A stretch of DNA of 64,000 nucleotides from an uncultured Cohaesibacter sp. (GTDB lineage: Bacteria; Pseudomonadota; Alphaproteobacteria; Rhizobiales; Cohaesibacteraceae): positions 45,787-109,786 of the forward strand of contig NZ_OY781115.1 of NCBI RefSeq assembly GCF_963676485.1, written 5' to 3'. The translations under genes and the position numbers were made by a program. This document shows, in pieces, positions 11,008 through 20,201 of this stretch (position 1 is the stretch's first letter; each line of letters begins with the position of its first letter). The notes under the pieces are model-generated. The model saw only the letters and a program-made list of their open reading frames with translations. It was not told where the DNA came from and ran no database searches.

Positions 11008-12297
11008 TTACGCCAGTTTCTGCTGTCCGATTGTTTTGCTAAGCAAGGCCTCGATCATGAAACGCGGAGAAAAACCGTCTTTCGCAACAAGCGATCTTAA
11101 ATAGCCGCCCGGCGATCGAATGCTATCACACCGTTCTAGCAACGCGGCAACGGTTACAGATGCGGTAACAAGTCCCAACCGCACCTTTGCTTCATGCCAA
11201 GCAGAGCTCGAAATGGAAAGCATTTGACTGACATGATCTGCGGTTTCAATCAGATCTGTCCAACTGCGAATACGAAAGCGGCTGCAATGAGTGATCTTTG
11301 GGCAGGCTTCCAATATCGTTTGCAAATCAAAGTAATTGCCGTGAGATTGCTCGGTAAGGACAAACTTCTCCTGCAAAGCAGTCTTAGGGACTGTTTGAAT
11401 TGCTGAAGACTTTTGTGGTTTGGTGCTTTGTGTTGCAATTTCCTGGCCGATGTGAATCTCGGTCCTTGATTGGATCTGGTCCTGAGCGGCTCCTTCTTCA
11501 GAGTCAAAATATTTATCTTTATTTGAATCCTCTATGTGCCGTTCATTTTGAGCGGGGCTGCCGTTCACTTCTTTGGAAAAAATAAGCTCATTCAACAGCT
11601 TGCCCACATCCTGAGCGAGCGTATAGAGACTGGCGTGAAGCTCTTTGAGAGTCGCAAGGCAAAGGCGACGGTCGGTTCTCTGTTGTAGCGTGGCCAGTCT
11701 TTCCATGAGCGGAGACCATTGGCCTGAGGGGCAGGTTATTGTGCCGTAGGACAGGCTCTTGGAGATATTGCGGCGCAGAATTGTGATGTCTTCCTTGAGG
11801 GTTTGTATCAGTCTTGCTTCTTGTCGCGTGGCTTCTGCCATTTGATGGAAGTCGGCAGCGCGTACGAGCAGAGGTTTGAGATCAAACCCGAAAGCACGCA
11901 TGATGGTGCCTTCATGGTCACGACGGGCATAGCGTTTGCCATTGGGGCTATCGCGACGGATGAGCAAACCGGCTTTGACAAGACTTGCCAAATGACGCCG
12001 CAATGTTGGTTCAGACATGCCATAAGCGCGTGAGCGCAGTTTGTTGTTGGAGGGAAAAACAATCAGATTGTCGTGCCCGCACAGGACATCGTCCTTGTGA
12101 AAGGAGAGCAGGGCGCTGAGCACAGCAAGACTGCGGTCTGAAAGCTCAAGCATTTTACGGCAGTCTGTTATATCGCGCAGAATTTGCCATTTATCAGCTG
12201 TTAAATTTTGAGCACAAGACACACTTATCCGTTGTCCATCTATCATCTCGACAGATAGATTACGGCCCCCAAAAGGGGTCGATAGAGTGATAGTCAT
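11008..12297 (-). CDS. repC: RepC replication initiator of a repABC replicon
   Basis: The 429-residue initiator that limits replication of repABC plasmids and chromids. It shows the family course: a basic winged-helix N-terminal half (LRSRAYGMSEPTLRRHLASLVKAGLLIRR, then DSPNGKRYARRD), a variable acidic/polar middle, and a conserved C-terminal segment (CDSIRSPGGYLRSLVAKDGFSP) near residues 390-410. In characterised replicons the origin lies inside repC. Here an AT-rich patch at about 11503-11532 is a candidate. It follows repB after a 203-base gap carrying the antisense RNA. The ATG at 12297 has only a weak ribosome site, in keeping with control by leader structure. Confidence 0.95.
   Translation of the reverse strand: MTITLSTPFGGRNLSVEMIDGQRISVSCAQNLTADKWQILRDITDCRKMLELSDRSLAVLSALLSFHKDDVLCGHDNLIVFPSNNKLRSRAYGMSEPTLRRHLASLVKAGLLIRRDSPNGKRYARRDHEGTIMRAFGFDLKPLLVRAADFHQMAEATRQEARLIQTLKEDITILRRNISKSLSYGTITCPSGQWSPLMERLATLQQRTDRRLCLATLKELHASLYTLAQDVGKLLNELIFSKEVNGSPAQNERHIEDSNKDKYFDSEEGAAQDQIQSRTEIHIGQEIATQSTKPQKSSAIQTVPKTALQEKFVLTEQSHGNYFDLQTILEACPKITHCSRFRIRSWTDLIETADHVSQMLSISSSAWHEAKVRLGLVTASVTVAALLERCDSIRSPGGYLRSLVAKDGFSPRFMIEALLSKTIGQQKLA
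11503..11532. other. AT-rich patch in repC, candidate origin
   Basis: A local AT-rich run (AAAATATTTATCTTTATTTG and flanks) within the variable middle of repC. The repABC origin is known to map inside repC near an AT-rich stretch. This is the most obvious one seen by eye, and the placement is inference. Confidence 0.35.
12190..12205. promoter_or_regulatory. Second parS-like site inside the start of repC
   Basis: TTTATCAGCTGTTAAA differs at one base from the perfect palindrome at 10983-10998. Two near-identical 16-mers flanking the body of repC are unlikely by chance and fit RepB-binding centromere sites. Confidence 0.5.
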
Positions 12298-12323
12298 AAC
12301 TTTTCATCAGGCAAAAGAAAATT

Positions 12324-12339
12324 GTTCGCTCGCGAGAAC
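12324..12339. repeat. 16-bp near-palindrome in the repC leader
   Basis: GTTCGCTCGCGAGAAC lies 27 bases upstream of repC. It keeps the GTT...AAC ends and the inner C and G of the repABC parS pattern but has CG instead of GC at the centre. It may be a divergent centromere site or part of the leader structure that controls repC. Confidence 0.35.
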
Positions 12340-12347
12340 GTTATGTC

Positions 12348-12376
12348 TTGACAATTTGTTGGGAAGCTGATTCTGT
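12348..12376 (+). promoter_or_regulatory. Promoter of the antisense RNA
   Basis: A consensus -35 TTGACA at 12348-12353 is followed 17 bases later by a weak -10 (TTCTGT, 12371-12376) on the strand opposite to repABC. This predicts a transcript starting near 12383. Confidence 0.5.
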
Positions 12377-12382
12377 AGGGTT

Positions 12383-12437
12383 GCTATACAATACAGGGCT
12401 TCCGGGTGGTTAACGCTGCTTGGGAGCCTTTTTCTTT
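12383..12437 (+). ncRNA. Counter-transcribed antisense RNA (incompatibility RNA) between repB and repC
   Basis: A predicted RNA of about 55 nucleotides, antisense to the repB-repC leader. Its 3' end is an intrinsic terminator: arms GGCTTCC (12397-12403) and GGGAGCC (12422-12428, one G-U pair) followed by TTTTTCTTT. Position, strand and size match the ctRNAs of other repABC replicons, which reduce RepC synthesis and set copy number and incompatibility. The exact 5' end is estimated from the promoter. Confidence 0.7.
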
Positions 12438-12469
12438 GCGCTATTCTCCTTTCTGTGTTTCATTCTTTG

Positions 12470-12490
12470 TTAACCATAACCCCTGGTTAA
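12470..12490. repeat. Stem-loop between repB and the antisense RNA
   Basis: TTAACCA and TGGTTAA arms enclose a 7-base loop, starting 10 bases after the repB stop. It probably forms in the repABC message leader and may take part in the alternative folding controlled by the antisense RNA. Confidence 0.4.
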
Positions 12491-12500
12491 GATGGGGGAG

Positions 12501-13544
12501 TTAACTTTTTTTCTTATAGTCCTCATAGAGTGAGGCCAGTGAGCTTGCGACATGTTCGGCGAATCTGCTGTCGAGCAAAACAAGCTCCGATTTTCGCGCG
12601 CCTTTTTTGAATGAGCCCAATGTGACATCTCCGGCGAGAAGCGCGACAGGCTGTGTCGACTTGTCCGCCTTATCGTCTTCTTCCTTCTGCAAATGCGAAA
12701 ATAAAAGCTGGAAGCGTTTGTCAGACGAGAGCTCATCGGTAAAAGCCTGCGATGTAATATAGCCATGGGCCCGCTGGCGGGCTCTATCGCTTTCCAGATG
12801 ATCCGCCATTTTCATCCAGCGCGGGCGTCCGATTTTCGGGGCAGGGCCAATGGCTCGAATAAGGGTGTCGGGCACGGCTGCATGGACACGCTTTAGATAT
12901 GAGGCTTCCGCATCGGTAATGGATAGGGCCAGCTTGACACGGGCTACTTCCTCTTTGGGGTCCGTGCACAGGGCGCGGACATGCGCGGCGAAGAGGACGC
13001 GCTCGATAAAGCTGAGATCCTGTCGATCACTATTCTCGATGCCTTGCGCTTGCACCAACTCGGCATCGGATAAGGCTTGCACCACCGCGCGGACCTTTTT
13101 GCCGGCAAGGCCTGAAATGGCCTTGAGACGGCGGTGTCCATACGCGACCTGGTAGCGCCCTTCCTCATCAGGGTGCGGGCGCACAAGGATCGGGATTTCC
13201 TGTCCTCTTTCCTCAATGGATTGGCGCAGCGAGAGAATTGCTTCTTCACTGGCGGCGTCCGAAAGACGATCAGGGAAAGGGGAGGGGTCTACTTGGTTCG
13301 GATCAAGCTCGACAACATCAGAGGCCGGTTTTTCAGCAAGCTGTGTCTTGAGCCTGTCGCGCTCTTGGCGTAATTCCGCAATCACGGTCTCCTTGGTGGC
13401 AGCGACCACGCCCGAGCCAACCCTTTGATTGTGCGGCTGTGAAGAGGTTTTTTGCTCCTCTCCGGCTTGTGTTTTGCTGGTCTCGGCAATCGAGTTGACC
13501 AGCGCACCGAACATCTGGGTTCGGGATGTCTTTTTCGCCGTCAT
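12501..13544 (-). CDS. repB: RepB partition protein (ParB family)
   Basis: A 347-residue centromere-binding protein of the repABC partition system. It has the basic N-terminus MTAKKTSRTQMFGAL, the ParB core (LRQSIEERGQEIPILVRPH, AYGHRRLKAI, QGIENSDRQDLSFIE) and an HTH region downstream (LALSITDAEASYLKRV). The ATG at 13544 overlaps the repA stop in an ATGA junction and has a G-rich ribosome site. A longer reading to 13556 is possible but less likely. RepB loads on parS and works with the ATPase RepA to segregate the replicon. Confidence 0.95.
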   Translation of the reverse strand: MTAKKTSRTQMFGALVNSIAETSKTQAGEEQKTSSQPHNQRVGSGVVAATKETVIAELRQERDRLKTQLAEKPASDVVELDPNQVDPSPFPDRLSDAASEEAILSLRQSIEERGQEIPILVRPHPDEEGRYQVAYGHRRLKAISGLAGKKVRAVVQALSDAELVQAQGIENSDRQDLSFIERVLFAAHVRALCTDPKEEVARVKLALSITDAEASYLKRVHAAVPDTLIRAIGPAPKIGRPRWMKMADHLESDRARQRAHGYITSQAFTDELSSDKRFQLLFSHLQKEEDDKADKSTQPVALLAGDVTLGSFKKGARKSELVLLDSRFAEHVASSLASLYEDYKKKS

Positions 13545-14743
13545 GAGCGCCCCCAACTGGCTTGAATCAGAGACAGAATTTCATGATTGACCGAGTCCAT
13601 GCTTTCCATTGCACGCCGATAGGTATCTCGTCCCATGGAATTGGTCTCGATTTCATAAAGGCTGCGCTTGTCGAGCCCGGCATTGGCAACCGCCGTGGTT
13701 TCAAACACGGAATTGGTCAATACCGCATCCCCCAGCAGCATACGCAACAGGCCGACAACCTGTTGCTGGGGGGCATCATTTGGATTGTGGCGCGTGATCA
13801 GGAAGCGCATGAAATTCATGTCCATGCTGCCGCCAGCCTCTTCAATGACATTCATGATGTCACTCATCATCAGCAAAAACTGGTTCATTGAGGCCACATC
13901 AAGCATGGAGGGATGCACGGTGATCATCAGGCCGGTCGAAGCAAAAAGCGCCCCTAGTGTGAGATAGCCAAGCTGGGGCGGTGTGTCGAATATAACGATG
14001 TCATACTCTTCGGACACTTGCTCAAGGCATGCGGATATGCGGCGGAAAAACACGCCATCCCCTTTGGATTGGCCCGAAACGATGGCTTGCGGCGTTGCAT
14101 GCTCGAATTCCATCAGCTCCAGATTCCCCGGAACCAGATCCAGGCCGTCAAAATAGGTCTTGCGGATCACATCGCGCAAAGGCCGTTGTTCTTCATCATA
14201 GCGGATCGCTGCCCAGAGGGTTTCGTTCGGCCCCACATCGAGCTCGGGTTGGGCGCCGAACATGGCGCTCATGGAAGCCTGCGGATCAAGGTCAATCGCC
14301 AACACCCGATAGCCTTGCAAGGCCAGAAAATGGGATAGATGCACCGAGGTGGTCGTCTTGGCTGATCCACCCTTGAAATTGGCAACAGACAGCACCTGAA
14401 GGCCTTCGCCTTGCTGCCGATTTGGGAGGAATTTCAAATGCTCATTGGGGCGTTTGTGGGCCAGATATTCGCGGAGCGCATTGATTTCCTGCAAGGAATA
14501 AATCCGTCGCCCGTTGGAAAGGCGCTCGGGGTCCGGGCCTTCACCATCCAGCGACATTTGCCGAATGGTGCTTTCAGCGATGGAAAGCAGACGTGCCGCT
14601 TCCGGAGCGGAAAATTTGCGCAATGATTTCTGCGCGTGCGGCGGATACATCCGCTCACGCAATGCGCTCAATTGTGACGACAACAGCGAGGCAAATTGGC
14701 CAACCTGTTCAGAGGGGCTCGAAAGAGGGGCCTGATCGCTCAC
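13541..14743 (-). CDS. repA: RepA partition ATPase (ParA family)
   Basis: A 400-residue Walker-type partition ATPase, first gene of repABC. An N-terminal HTH (APEAARLLSIAESTIRQM, about residues 47-64) lets such proteins autorepress the operon. The deviant Walker A motif KGGSAKT is at 124-130, followed by AIDLDPQASMS and IVIFDTPPQLGYLT. The length is typical for repABC RepA. GAGG precedes the ATG by about 6 bases. Translational coupling with repB through an ATGA overlap supports equal production of the two partition proteins. Confidence 0.96.
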   Translation of the reverse strand: MSDQAPLSSPSEQVGQFASLLSSQLSALRERMYPPHAQKSLRKFSAPEAARLLSIAESTIRQMSLDGEGPDPERLSNGRRIYSLQEINALREYLAHKRPNEHLKFLPNRQQGEGLQVLSVANFKGGSAKTTTSVHLSHFLALQGYRVLAIDLDPQASMSAMFGAQPELDVGPNETLWAAIRYDEEQRPLRDVIRKTYFDGLDLVPGNLELMEFEHATPQAIVSGQSKGDGVFFRRISACLEQVSEEYDIVIFDTPPQLGYLTLGALFASTGLMITVHPSMLDVASMNQFLLMMSDIMNVIEEAGGSMDMNFMRFLITRHNPNDAPQQQVVGLLRMLLGDAVLTNSVFETTAVANAGLDKRSLYEIETNSMGRDTYRRAMESMDSVNHEILSLIQASWGRS

Positions 14744-15454: not shown

Positions 15455-15970
15455 CTAAGGTTTCCGCTTCATCCAGGCTGCATAGTCCGGGTTCTGATGG
15501 CTCATATCGTCATAAAGCCACACCATCCGGTCGAGAAACCAGAGCTTTGTGAGCATGATCGTGATGGTGCCAAAGACCGTCGCCCAGACGTCCAGCCAGA
15601 TGAGACCATACAGATAGGGCAAGGCCGCCAGTCCGGACAGTCCATTGAGAATGAAGCCAGCCCGAATGTGGTGGCGCGGTATGGGGCATTCTTGCCGGTT
15701 CAGCCAGACGCGTTCTCCGAACACGCCTTTGGTCATCCAGTTGTCTGTATCCTCGGGCGCAGGGAAAAGGCGTGGGTTGATCCAGAGCCACAGAAGCGCA
15801 AGCACAAGGGGCACGGCAGCCCAGACACCGATATAGATGCGGCTCCATACGGCAAGCGCGATCAGGGGGAGAGATGCAACCCGGCTCCAACCACTCCATT
15901 TGTTGGCGTGACGCTCCCAGACCTCCGGTGACATCCCCATCAGCTTTTCAGACAGTTCGGCGATTTTCAT
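15455..15970 (-). CDS. DUF6653 family membrane protein
   Basis: A 171-residue membrane protein with a cytosolic start (SPEVWERHANKWSGWSRV), a pair of hydrophobic helices (LPLIALAVWSRIYIGVW and AAVPLVLALLWLWI), a soluble NPRLFPAPEDTDNWM block, and further hydrophobic segments before WFLDRMVWLYDDM. I recognise this as the DUF6653 pattern. No function is known and there is no operon partner. The assignment is from remembered family features. Confidence 0.75.
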   Translation of the reverse strand: MKIAELSEKLMGMSPEVWERHANKWSGWSRVASLPLIALAVWSRIYIGVWAAVPLVLALLWLWINPRLFPAPEDTDNWMTKGVFGERVWLNRQECPIPRHHIRAGFILNGLSGLAALPYLYGLIWLDVWATVFGTITIMLTKLWFLDRMVWLYDDMSHQNPDYAAWMKRKP

Positions 15971-16127: not shown

Positions 16128-17003
16128 TTAGATGTGATAGCCATAGCGCTGCAATATGTCGGCAACGGTGCCTTTTTCGATATAGCCTCTTTGAACTTCA
16201 TTCATGACATCTTGCACGCTGCTTTCCGCACTCTTCATTGTGTCATATTTCGCATCATCCGGCGTCAGCATGATGTAGGATTCGTCCGTGTGGCTGTAGA
16301 CCAGCTTTACATCCTGCCCATATTCAGCGCGCAGTTGACGTTCTGCATCGACTGCGTTCATCAAGGTTTCCAACCGCACCCTGCGATCTGCCTTGATGGC
16401 AGCGTCAGAATTGCTCTTCTCGATCGGGTTCCCATTGGACCAAACACCGTTGCTGTGAAAGAAATCCTCGTTCATATAGGCGGATGTGGCGCCATCTGGC
16501 AGAGCGCCCAGAGCTTTTGATGCAATCTCGACCATGCCTCCCTGCATGTCTATTTTGATCATGCTGTTCCCGGATTGAGAGCCTTGTTGCGTCTGCGCGC
16601 CGCCCCCATTTTCTGCCTGATCTGCTATGGCAGCAAAGGTGGACATCATGGCTTTGGTGTCGGCCGCCGAGAGCGTTTGGATGAGTGACACACCATCGCG
16701 CGCATCAATGCTGTGCCCTGAGGTGATAATCGATAATCCATTGATATTAATAGACTTGGTGGACGCTTCGCGCGCTGCGTCTTCTTGCAAGGCCAGCAGA
16801 GACGATTGGGTTTCAGCCGTTACCGGCGCAGTTTTGTAAGCGCCTTGCGTAGGCCGTGAGGAGGCGGTTTCCTTTGCCTGTGGCCCGGCAAAGGGTTTCG
16901 AAGTGTCTTCTGATCTAGACGAGGCCCCGCTTTCAAAATTGATGGGGAATTTCGTTGGTATCGTGCCAAGAATCGGAAGTTGCATCATCGCCCTCTCGTT
17001 CAT
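16128..17003 (-). CDS. Hypothetical protein
   Basis: A 291-residue protein I do not recognise. There is no signal peptide or membrane helix. The first 80 residues are Ser/Thr/Pro/Gln-rich and look disordered. The middle has a Gly/Gln-rich run (NGGGAQTQQGSQSGNS). The C-terminal 120 residues look folded and contain RRVRLETLMNAVDAERQLRAEYG and a final segment VMNEVQRGYIEKGTVADILQ. A second ATG pair at 16985-16988 has a better GAGAGG ribosome site, so the protein may start six residues later (MQLPILGTI). It is divergent from the MarR-amylase gene. Confidence 0.6.
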   Translation of the reverse strand: MNERAMMQLPILGTIPTKFPINFESGASSRSEDTSKPFAGPQAKETASSRPTQGAYKTAPVTAETQSSLLALQEDAAREASTKSININGLSIITSGHSIDARDGVSLIQTLSAADTKAMMSTFAAIADQAENGGGAQTQQGSQSGNSMIKIDMQGGMVEIASKALGALPDGATSAYMNEDFFHSNGVWSNGNPIEKSNSDAAIKADRRVRLETLMNAVDAERQLRAEYGQDVKLVYSHTDESYIMLTPDDAKYDTMKSAESSVQDVMNEVQRGYIEKGTVADILQRYGYHI

Positions 17004-17126
17004 GTTCCAGAAAAATTAATGCAAGAGATGTGCCATAATCTTTGTCATATTTCAGATTGCATCATGCCTATTGGCGGGCATGCGCCTATGCGGAAACAGA
17101 GCGCTGATCTTGATTTTTGTAAATTA

Positions 17127-17141
17127 ATACGCTATGCGTAT
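17127..17141. promoter_or_regulatory. Palindrome overlapping the start of the MarR-amylase gene
   Basis: ATACGC-TAT-GCGTAT is a perfect inverted repeat that covers the first ATG (17134). MarR proteins commonly bind such short dyads at their own promoter, so autoregulation is likely. If translation begins at the next ATG (17146), the site lies in the leader. Confidence 0.5.
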
Positions 17142-18921
17142 CATTATGGCAAGATATGCAAGACATGATGTCGCCGCTCTGCTGAAGGCTGTGCTGGCGT
17201 TCGGGCGTCGACTGCGCTCGGAGCGCACATCGACGCGCGTCACATCCTCTGCTGCGAGCATGCTCAACACGCTCTATGTGCAAGGGCCAATGTCCGCCCG
17301 GCAGCTCGCAAGCGAGGAGCGACTACAGCCCCAATCGCTGACGCGGATCGTCAAGCGGCTGGAGGAAGATGGCCTGATCCGGCGCGACCGCAGTCAAGAA
17401 GATCAACGCGAGCTGATCATTGCGTTGACCCAAACAGGCACAAGAGAGCTCGATGCCGACCTCTTGGAGCGACAGAGATGGTTGGAGCAGGTTGTCGCGG
17501 ACGCCCTGAGCGAAGAGGACCGGGCTTTGTTGGGAGACGTCGCACGCCTTCTGCTCAAGCTCGCCTTTCATGATACTGAGGCCAAAACACAGGAAACAGA
17601 TATGCCGAGCTGGGTTCAATATGCGATTTTCTGGCAACTATATCCTTTAGGATTTGTTGGTGCACCTAAAAGCATCGACAGGATCAAAGGCATTGATCAT
17701 CGTTTCGATCATATCATCGACTGGCTTGATTATGCCGTTGAACTGGGCGTTTCCGCGCTGCTACTCGGGCCGATCTTCGCATCATCCACGCACGGATATG
17801 ACACGATTGATCACTATCGCATCGACCCGCGCCTTGGTGATGAGGCGGATTTCGACCGGCTGATGGCCGCAGCCAATCAGCGTGGTCTGAAGATCATTCT
17901 CGATGGGGTCTTCAATCATGTCGGGCGCGATTTCCCCAAATTCATCGAAGCCGACGCTGAAGGGGCCGGGTCAGAAGCGGCACACTGGTTCCTTCCCGTT
18001 GACAGCAATGGCTCCAATAGCACGGCGGCATGGGAGACCTTTGAGGGGCACCCCAGTCTGATCACACTCAATCATGAGAATCCGGATGTGGCGGACTATG
18101 TTCTCGATGTCATGACCCATTGGATGGATCGTGGGGTATCCGGTTGGCGCCTTGATGCGGCCTATGCGACGCCGACGTCCTTTTGGGCGCAAATTCTGCC
18201 CACGGTGCGTCAAGCTCATCCTGAAGCCTATATTTTCGGGGAGGTCATTCACGGAGATTATGTCGGGTTTGTTCAGGAAAGCGGCGTTGATTCCGTTACG
18301 CAGTATGAGCTCTGGAAGGCCATATGGAGTGCGCTCAATGACACCAATTTCTTCGAGCTCGCCTGGGCCCTTGATCGGCACAACCGGTTCCTTGAACATT
18401 TTGCGCCCCTTACATTCGTAGGCAATCACGATGTCACCCGGATTGCGAGCCAGTTGGAAGACACAAAGCATTTGCCCCATGCGTTGGCCTTGCTTTTATT
18501 GACCGGGGGAACCCCTTGCATTTATTCCGGCGATGAGCAGGGATTTCGCGGCATCAAGGAAGAAAGGGAAGGCGGCGATGATGTGATCCGCCCGGCTTTT
18601 CCCGAGCATCCGGACGGGCTACTCGATGATGGATTGCCCATTTACCGTCTGCATCAGGATCTGATCGGCTTGCGACGCAGAAATCCATGGCTGGTGCGCG
18701 CCCGAAGCGAGGCGCTGCATCTTGAAAACCAGCAGATGGTTCTGAAAGTCAGCGCCGAGGGCAACCGCCTGATCCTTGCTTTCAACCTTGGAGAGGCTGA
18801 TGTCGCGCTCCCCGCTGGCGATGCCAGTAGCCTTTTGTCGGGGGAGGGGAATCTGACCAAGAATGGTGAGGGTGGCACGATTCATCTCAAAGGCCACGGT
18901 TGGTGTGTTTTGTCGTCTTGA
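17134..18921 (+). CDS. MarR-type regulator fused in frame to a GH13 alpha-amylase family enzyme
   Basis: One open frame of 595 residues joins two unrelated domains. Residues 1-150 are a complete MarR winged helix: MSARQLASEERLQPQSLTRI, then VKRLEEDGLIRRDRSQEDQR as the wing. Residues 157-595 are a GH13 enzyme beginning at its natural N-terminus (MPSWVQYAIFWQLYPLGF). It has DGVFNH at 257-262, nucleophile Asp341 in GWRLDAAY, acid/base Glu370 in FGEVI and Asp433 in FVGNHD. The joint is a short polar linker (HDTEAKTQETD). An AGGA element lies 7 bases before the internal ATG at 17602, so a separate amylase may also be made. There is no signal peptide, so the enzyme should be cytosolic. Confidence 0.85.
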   Translation: MRIIMARYARHDVAALLKAVLAFGRRLRSERTSTRVTSSAASMLNTLYVQGPMSARQLASEERLQPQSLTRIVKRLEEDGLIRRDRSQEDQRELIIALTQTGTRELDADLLERQRWLEQVVADALSEEDRALLGDVARLLLKLAFHDTEAKTQETDMPSWVQYAIFWQLYPLGFVGAPKSIDRIKGIDHRFDHIIDWLDYAVELGVSALLLGPIFASSTHGYDTIDHYRIDPRLGDEADFDRLMAAANQRGLKIILDGVFNHVGRDFPKFIEADAEGAGSEAAHWFLPVDSNGSNSTAAWETFEGHPSLITLNHENPDVADYVLDVMTHWMDRGVSGWRLDAAYATPTSFWAQILPTVRQAHPEAYIFGEVIHGDYVGFVQESGVDSVTQYELWKAIWSALNDTNFFELAWALDRHNRFLEHFAPLTFVGNHDVTRIASQLEDTKHLPHALALLLLTGGTPCIYSGDEQGFRGIKEEREGGDDVIRPAFPEHPDGLLDDGLPIYRLHQDLIGLRRRNPWLVRARSEALHLENQQMVLKVSAEGNRLILAFNLGEADVALPAGDASSLLSGEGNLTKNGEGGTIHLKGHGWCVLSS

Positions 18922-19080: not shown

Positions 19081-19446
19081 TTAACCGTCGGGCAGGTTCA
19101 CGCGGATCCGATGCCCATCAGGGTCCAGCGCCACAAAGGTGAGGCCAAACACGGCTTCTTGCAATTCTTGCTCGATTTTGACGCCATTCGCGCACCACTG
19201 TGCGTAGAGTTTTCTGACGATTTCTTCAGTCTCGACTTGGAACGCCAATTCGGAGCGATGGCCCACCCCACCCGATAGGAAATTTTTCGCACTGGTCGAC
19301 CAAAGGCCAAGGATCAGTCCATTATCGAACTCGAAGGCTTGATAGGTCGGAAAGCCAACAGCCGGTTTACCGATGATCTGTTCGTAGAATTTCGCGCTCT
19401 CAAGCGGGTTGGAAACATACAGAATGAGTAGGTTTGGAGCGAGCAT
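19081..19446 (-). CDS. VOC family protein (glyoxalase/bleomycin-resistance fold)
   Basis: A small 121-residue protein of the vicinal-oxygen-chelate superfamily. It shows two beta-alpha-beta modules: LLILYVSNPLESAKFYEQIIG at the start, and FGLTFVALDPDGHRIRVNLPDG at the end, the usual last strand. Members are metal-dependent isomerases or dioxygenases, or simple ligand-binding resistance proteins. It is divergent from a YafY-type regulator, a frequent pairing, which suggests control by it. The substrate is unknown. Confidence 0.85.
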   Translation of the reverse strand: MLAPNLLILYVSNPLESAKFYEQIIGKPAVGFPTYQAFEFDNGLILGLWSTSAKNFLSGGVGHRSELAFQVETEEIVRKLYAQWCANGVKIEQELQEAVFGLTFVALDPDGHRIRVNLPDG

Positions 19447-19520: not shown

Positions 19521-20201
19521 ATGCGCACATCACGGCTACTCAATTTGCTTCAGATACTCAGACGCTCACGATATCCCGTGAGCGGCCATGAACTCGCACA
19601 AAAGCTGGGCATCAGCATTCGGACCCTCTATCGGGACATCGCGACACTGCAAGCCGAAGGCGCGGACATTGAGGGCGAGCCCGGTGTTGGATATGTCCTG
19701 AATAAAGGCTTCTTCCTCCCCCCGCTGATGTTTTCCGAAGAGGAAATGTCGGCCTTTATGCTTGGCATGAAATGGGTTGCCAGATTCGGCGACAAGTCGC
19801 TCTCCGAGGCATCAAAACAAATGATTGCCAAGGTTGAACGGGTCGTGCCGGAAACGGTCTTGGAAGCGGCAGCCGCGATACCTCATGGCGTTGGTGAGCC
19901 TGCCGAAGAGACATTCAACGGCGAAGATTTGAGCGATCTCAGAGCTGCGATCAAGCAAGAGCGCAAGTTGAAAATGATATATCAAAAGCCGGGTGGGGAG
20001 CCTGCAGAACGGATAATCTGGCCCATTGCCATCGGATATTTTCCAACCGGCCGGGTTTTGGTCGGTTGGTGTGAAACCAGCCAAGGGTTCCGACACTTTC
20101 GCACGGATCGCATCCGCTCTCGCACGCAGATGGCCGACGGATTCCCGAAAAGACGCAGTGATTTGTATAGAGAATGGCAGCATGGACAATCAAAGCGCTG
20201 A
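19521..20201 (+). CDS. YafY-type HTH/WYL transcriptional regulator
   Basis: A 226-residue DeoR-like regulator. The N-terminal HTH_11 reads RTSRLLNLLQILRRSRYPVSG followed by HELAQKLGISIRTLYRDI. A WYL-type ligand-binding region follows (IYQKPGGEPAERIIWPIAIGYF, with LVGWCETSQGFRHFRTDRI). WYL domains bind small ligands or nucleic acids and tune the regulator. It is divergent from the VOC gene and is its likely regulator. Confidence 0.88.
   Translation: MRTSRLLNLLQILRRSRYPVSGHELAQKLGISIRTLYRDIATLQAEGADIEGEPGVGYVLNKGFFLPPLMFSEEEMSAFMLGMKWVARFGDKSLSEASKQMIAKVERVVPETVLEAAAAIPHGVGEPAEETFNGEDLSDLRAAIKQERKLKMIYQKPGGEPAERIIWPIAIGYFPTGRVLVGWCETSQGFRHFRTDRIRSRTQMADGFPKRRSDLYREWQHGQSKR

Follow-up and report, generated by a model that had tools for sequence, protein, structure and literature searches.

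The window, a stretch of 64,000 nucleotides from an uncultured Cohaesibacter sp., encodes a MarR-type regulator and a GH13 enzyme of the amylase family in one open reading frame. This fusion is genuine, old and conserved. When related genomes were searched for the MarR-GH13 architecture, it was found in frame at eight loci from eight separate assemblies of at least two families (four genomes of the genus Cohaesibacter, three of Pleomorphomonas and one Ahrensia MAG), with equal architecture and the same linker length throughout. We call the fusion old because differences at fourfold sites among the fused loci reach 0.67 (67%), a near-saturated synonymous divergence. The explanation that we consider probable is an old fusion of a local MarR autoregulator to its former operon-mate, a GH13 enzyme, so that the gene would encode an autorepressor-enzyme, probably together with free GH13. 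The features of the locus are listed below, with residues counted from Met5, the conserved start.

17110..17115, + strand: TTGATT, proposed -35 element; TTGAT identical in 8/8 fused loci
17127..17141, no strand: dyad ATACGCTATGCGTAT, proposed MarR operator; ends 4 nt before the Met5 start
17128-17140, no strand: conserved dyad core TACGCTATGCGTA, 13 bp
17146..18921, + strand: gene of the MarR-GH13 fusion, with 591 codons when read from Met5, the conserved start, and 595 when read from the first ATG (17134)
17146..17568, + strand: MarR domain (winged helix), residues 1-141, with helices 1 to 6
17569..17601, + strand: linker of 11 codons, stop-free and variable in sequence
17591..17604, + strand: internal Shine-Dalgarno-like AGGA (17591-17594) with in-frame ATG 17602, at or near the stand-alone GH13 start position
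17602..18918, + strand: GH13 catalytic domain and C-terminal DUF3459 (Pfam, alignments and fold match)

Reading frame, domains and start codon

The frame at 17134-18921 (+) has 595 codons and a single stop, located at its end. The preliminary description, which had reported one such frame holding both domains with no stop between them, was thus correct on this point; the position it gave as the start of the feature, 17127, is the first base of the dyad, and the frame itself begins at 17134. Pfam analysis of the frame returned MarR (PF01047, residues 37-93, E 1.4e-14), Alpha-amylase (PF00128, residues 192-481, E 6.8e-49) and DUF3459 (residues 506-586, E 7.1e-8), all of them exceeding their curated cut-offs. 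The remaining Pfam models that matched (E up to 0.01) were helix-turn-helix models overlying the MarR part. PF01047 scored 54.1-57.1 bits against a curated cut-off of 24.6, which places the N-terminal part in the MarR family and agrees with the complete winged helix noted earlier, while PF00128 scored 169.2 bits for the GH13 part against a curated cut-off of 22. The complete GH13 domain with three catalytic acids described before is likewise present: counted from Met5, D337 (18154-18156), E366 (18241-18243) and D429 (18430-18432) are invariant across an alignment of 38 rows and align with the acids of solved cyclomaltodextrinase and alpha-amylase II.

Met5 (17146) is kept in all eight fused loci. 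It is the conserved start, and the ATG at 17134 was rejected as such, because the fused relative L085 has a Lys codon where the window has its first ATG (position 1) and because the dyad ATG is out of frame with MarR in four two-gene loci of the Rhizobium/Neorhizobium type. No Shine-Dalgarno sequence precedes Met5 (predicted pairing +0.6 in seven loci and -0.5 in one), and its use is suggested by its conservation together with a putative leaderless transcript.

Distribution of the fusion

We scanned one genome per species (84,980 species) with a pattern-based search using the fused protein, and the best 80 of the 107 confirmed relatives were examined for MarR. Four of these 80 are in-frame fusions (the three Pleomorphomonas and the Ahrensia MAG), and in six a MarR gene precedes GH13 on the same strand, in a different frame (Neorhizobium, a Rhizobiales isolate, two Rhizobium tropici, Actinomadura and Nakamurella). 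Four, all Kribbella, have an upstream MarR on the opposite strand and three have a distant or weaker MarR only, while no MarR was found near GH13 at E 1e-5 in the flanking DNA of 63 of the best 80 of 107. A weakly similar MarR lies convergent with GH13, on its 3' side, in L122 (G857) and in the Methylobacterium locus L016.

Twenty genomes of the window's own family were searched as well. The fusion is present in 4 of the 18 belonging to the genus, counting that of the window itself (another of them is only 64% complete), and neither of the two genomes from other genera carries it. The family of Pleomorphomonas has it in 3 of 20 genomes; these agree with loci L001-L003 in frame length and profile score and were counted once. 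In the larger samples at most three candidates were scored in each genome, and some fusions may have been missed. Within that scope, two overlapping samples of the order (397 and 393 genomes) added no fusion to the count. Each had 13 matches at E 1e-60, of which 7 and 5 were fusions already counted; the rest matched GH13 only, among them G849, where a MarR lies in another frame, and G857 with its weak convergent MarR. The class (385 genomes) and phylum (398 genomes) samples, searched in the same way, gave the window's own genome as their sole match at E 1e-60. In one of six matching plasmid records, that of Rhizobium tropici CIAT 899, two pieces together match 96% of the protein.

Two-gene relatives and the origin of the fusion

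In a quick, midpoint-rooted tree of GH13 sequences (89 rows, after L078 had been dropped as too short) the eight fusions form one clade with SH-aLRT 100. Its sister group is made up of the four rhizobial loci with two overlapping genes, with a support of 94, which is under the starred level. The eight fusions are also united in a quick tree of 17 MarR rows (SH-aLRT 100).

Related regulator and enzyme genes adjoin in Rhizobium, Neorhizobium, the Rhizobiales isolate, Actinomadura and Nakamurella, as their counterparts do in the window, but there they are separate genes in different frames. GH13 and MarR overlap by 4 nt in Neorhizobium and by 20 nt in the three other rhizobial two-gene loci. In Actinomadura the overlap, taken from the nearest in-frame GH13 ATG to the MarR stop, is 4 nt, and the two genes of Nakamurella lie 34 nt apart. 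What sets these relatives apart from the fusions is a change of frame and not a single stop codon, the loss of which had been raised earlier as one possibility. The simplest history is that a single event changed the frame within a short overlap and that the joined gene was then passed on by descent or transfer.

The four rhizobial two-gene loci also share the 13-bp dyad upstream of MarR with the window, whereas the sites of Actinomadura and Nakamurella are merely loosely similar to it. Kribbella differs from the fused window in having a related MarR divergent from GH13 (L037, 4120-4539; also L039, L040 and L048) and another dyad: none of the four Kribbella loci has the pattern TACG...CGTA between MarR and GH13, and the 13-bp dyad TAAGCTNAGCTTA was seen by eye upstream of MarR in all four. 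The rhizobial and fused loci form a natural before-and-after pair, with two overlapping genes in the one and a single chain in the other behind the same upstream dyad. This makes the gain from having repressor and target enzyme as one molecule directly testable, and the same holds for the idea that a hydrolase might control transcription of the gene encoding it.

A conserved dyad upstream of the fusion gene

The dyad at 17127-17141 has the arms ATACGC and GCGTAT around a TAT centre. It was initially described as a perfect dyad over the first ATG, and it does overlie the ATG at 17134; the conserved start is Met5, however, so that the dyad sits before the start codon instead of covering it. Its 13-bp core is identical in the eight fused loci save for one column (7/8), where the exception, L085, retains a dyad with a changed centre. 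Conservation of the outer base on either side of the core is 0.62 and 0.75. Over the 100 nt before Met5 in the eight loci, the TTGAT columns (-36 to -32) are identical in 8/8 and columns -100 to -41 have a conservation of 0.25-0.75.

A distance of 17 nt separates TTGATT from TATGCG inside the dyad, and the latter may represent a -10 element (17133-17138). A promoter overlapped by its operator, with a leaderless transcript from about Met5, is plausible from this arrangement, and such a transcript would explain the use of Met5 without a Shine-Dalgarno sequence. Like MarR-family genes in general, the fusion gene is closely preceded by a candidate palindromic site, located 4 nt before Met5 in all eight fused loci. 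The recognition-helix sequence QPQSLT is identical in 17/17 MarR rows, and the next residue is Arg in 16 of them and Lys in one. Autoregulation by the fused MarR is likely.

The 13-mer is also found upstream of MarR in 4/4 two-gene loci of the Rhizobium/Neorhizobium type. Ten genomes, seven with the fusion (all carriers but that of L004) and three congeners without it, were scanned for the exact 13-mer TACGCTAWGCGTA. Nine copies were present in the ten genomes. Seven are at the fusion gene, in 7/7 carriers, and the two others are in the carrier G270, where both sit inside long open frames and probably arose by chance; the exact 13-mer was not found in the 3/3 congeners without the fusion. Matches with one mismatch were fewer than those of a reversed control pattern in all ten genomes. 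With the exact copies nearly all at the fusion gene and the mismatch scan below its control in these ten genomes, a wider regulon was rejected, and the regulator looks local.

A possible internal start for free GH13

The ribosome-site-like AGGA reported before the GH13 start was recovered at 17591-17594, with a spacing of 7 nt to ATG 17602. This ATG matches the start position (ATG, GTG or TTG) of most of 15 inspected loci with a non-fused GH13. Across the eight fused loci, the energy predicted for anti-Shine-Dalgarno pairing at the junction ranges from -4.3 to -10.3 kcal/mol, compared with a mean of -1.4 kcal/mol (s.d. 2.4) over 64 further ATG codons in frame. The retained Shine-Dalgarno sequence and ATG 17602 may also yield free GH13, which would make the fusion gene a compact candidate for two in-frame products from one gene.

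From the DNA we infer DNA binding, repression, a ligand, enzyme activity and a second product, which may be combined as follows. The MarR part, presumably as a dimer, would bind the dyad at 17127-17141, which overlaps the promoter proposed for the fusion gene, and would keep that gene repressed until a ligand releases the protein. Translation from Met5 would attach the enzyme to each MarR made, and the Shine-Dalgarno sequence with ATG 17602 would provide additional free GH13, as in the two-gene relatives.

The internal start could instead be a relic. If so, the 591-residue protein would be the single product and the Shine-Dalgarno sequence and ATG 17602 would be unused remains of the operon, which we regard as possible yet unlikely. 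All MarR translation does enter GH13, with no stop between the parts, and the Gly and Glu codons at the junction give a GG-rich sequence regardless, so that the amino acids can account for it. The pairing is moreover a moderate -4.3 kcal/mol in three loci of the genus, window included, whereas all 15 non-fused GH13 starts, one of them (L017) scored at a misplaced start, are stronger at -5.0 to -12.7 kcal/mol. A relic is harder to reconcile with an ATG that is kept in 8/8 fused loci beside a linker whose residues differ in about 60% of comparisons among them. The junction also pairs more strongly than 61 of the 64 other in-frame ATGs, each compared within its own gene, and only three are as strong.

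Structure and closest known systems

The full-length model was mostly confident in GH13 but poor in MarR, which was therefore folded alone (17 rows). An alignment including MarR-only rows looked misaligned and was left out of the folding. The MarR-alone model has the canonical fold with a mean pLDDT of 84, and its best structure matches are Rv0880 chains (TM by query 0.71-0.82). With Rv0880 (4yif), the nearest solved member of the family, the window protein shares the winged-helix fold and a conserved recognition helix. Unlike Rv0880, it has an enzyme of 439 residues C-terminally, and its score with the NCBIfam Rv0880 equivalog model, 77 bits, is below the cut-off of 220.

By E-value, the best matches of the GH13 model are a Nostoc debranching enzyme, a Thermoactinomyces alpha-amylase II and neopullulanases, and the top target-normalised TM among the best 50 rows, 0.81, belongs to the Arthrobacter cyclic alpha-maltosyl-(1->6)-maltose hydrolase. 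The GH13 part resembles the cyclomaltodextrinase/neopullulanase/alpha-amylase II group (1ea9, 1wzl and 1j0h) in its catalytic barrel, three acids and conserved motifs. It differs from this group in that identity in the fold match is about 25-28% and the match starts at residue 125-175 of those chains, after an N-terminal region that is absent in the window protein. An extra N-terminal carbohydrate-binding domain defines neopullulanase-type GH13, and with models at E up to 0.01 no such domain was found. The cyclomaltodextrinase equivalog NF041090 scored 159.7-161 bits, against a cut-off of 540. For the Nostoc enzyme (2wc7, 2wcs) and the Arthrobacter hydrolase (5zxg, 6a0k), each at about 26% identity, the match begins near the chain N-terminus. 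We propose that the GH13 part is an alpha-glucan-active enzyme.

Bifunctional regulator-enzymes, of which RbkR is one, combine DNA-binding and enzyme domains in one chain, and the window protein has both in its sequence. BirA (PMC5882156) is another, with a DNA-binding part joined to an enzyme of the regulated process. BirA and RbkR have another DNA-binding family and another enzyme than the window protein, whose dual function is putative; its conserved fusion fits a bifunctional, DNA-bound enzyme. No MarR-GH13 fusion was found among the literature matches listed (titles and the starts of abstracts), and the available part of PMC11046441 makes no mention of MarR. The regulator-enzyme fusion as a kind has precedents in BirA and RbkR.

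A more daring version, which we hold to be doubtful, is that the GH13 active site is itself the sensor. Bound substrate or product would then alter the grip of the MarR dimer on the operator, and the start at 17602 would set the ratio of sensor-enzyme to free enzyme. If true, a glycoside hydrolase would be its own one-component gene switch.

The linker and possible selection on the joined frame

The linker between the final helix of MarR and the ATG of GH13 is 33 nt long and stop-free in all eight fused loci. In the model it comes out as disordered, with a pLDDT below 50 for residues 145-152. The mean numbers of changes per column at codon positions 1/2/3, with gapped columns excluded, are 0.69/0.33/1.77 in MarR (p about 5.5e-28) and 0.63/0.40/2.01 in GH13 (p about 2.8e-103); both domains are thus under selection, with a strong codon-position bias. 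The linker, with 1.09/0.91/1.64 (p = 0.059), shows a weaker bias, and by itself it is too short a stretch to demonstrate that the joined frame is selected. Stop avoidance was also considered as proof of such selection and was not decisive: in a neutral simulation with substitutions only, all eight leaves stayed stop-free with a probability of 0.09 to 0.72, a range that reflects the base composition, rate and ancestor chosen. Since no stop separates the parts, every MarR made carries GH13, and with MarR this strongly conserved the fused chain should be made in the cell, whether or not it is cut later.

Such cutting, or a MarR that is barely translated, would leave functionally two proteins whose parts act apart. 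The disordered, fast-evolving linker, the relatives that work as two genes and the lack of a Shine-Dalgarno sequence at Met5 would all suit this reading, which nevertheless strikes us as improbable: it requires cleavage or weak translation, and the linker length is identical in 8/8 loci and MarR is under strong constraint. An assembly or sequencing artefact at the joint, or a stop lost very recently in this genome alone, has practically no chance of being correct, since nothing but the two-gene state of some relatives speaks for it and the joined frame occurs in eight separate assemblies, which represent two or more families and are nearly saturated in synonymous divergence. The refuting condition named earlier, that relatives all encode two genes, fails at these eight loci and is true only for other relatives.

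Genomic surroundings

The fusion gene is flanked on its 5' side by the following genes.

16128..17003, - strand: divergent gene without a Pfam, NCBIfam or PHROG match; adjoins the fusion in 7/8 fused loci
11008-14743, - strand: repABC-type replication and partition genes

The divergent gene is present without the fusion in the congeners G003 and G004, which weakens its case as an obligate partner; G016 has a weaker match. Pleomorphomonas L001 and L003 have two copies each, and a weaker match lies elsewhere in the window's own genome. A gene for a DUF6653 protein (15455-15970, -) also neighbours the fusion in two congeners; the third shows a short, remnant-like DUF6653 match of 31 residues.

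As a side observation, the fusion lies 2.4 kb from the repA-like gene on a contig of 208,801 bp; given the repABC genes and this contig size, the window is probably on a plasmid. Three congeners, each assembled as one contig of 4.6-5.2 Mb, carry the fusion gene on that contig together with its neighbour. Downstream of the fusion, a glyoxalase-superfamily gene (19081-19446, -) is divergent from a gene for an HTH_11/WYL regulator (19521-20201, +), and the two are possibly an ordinary regulator-target pair.
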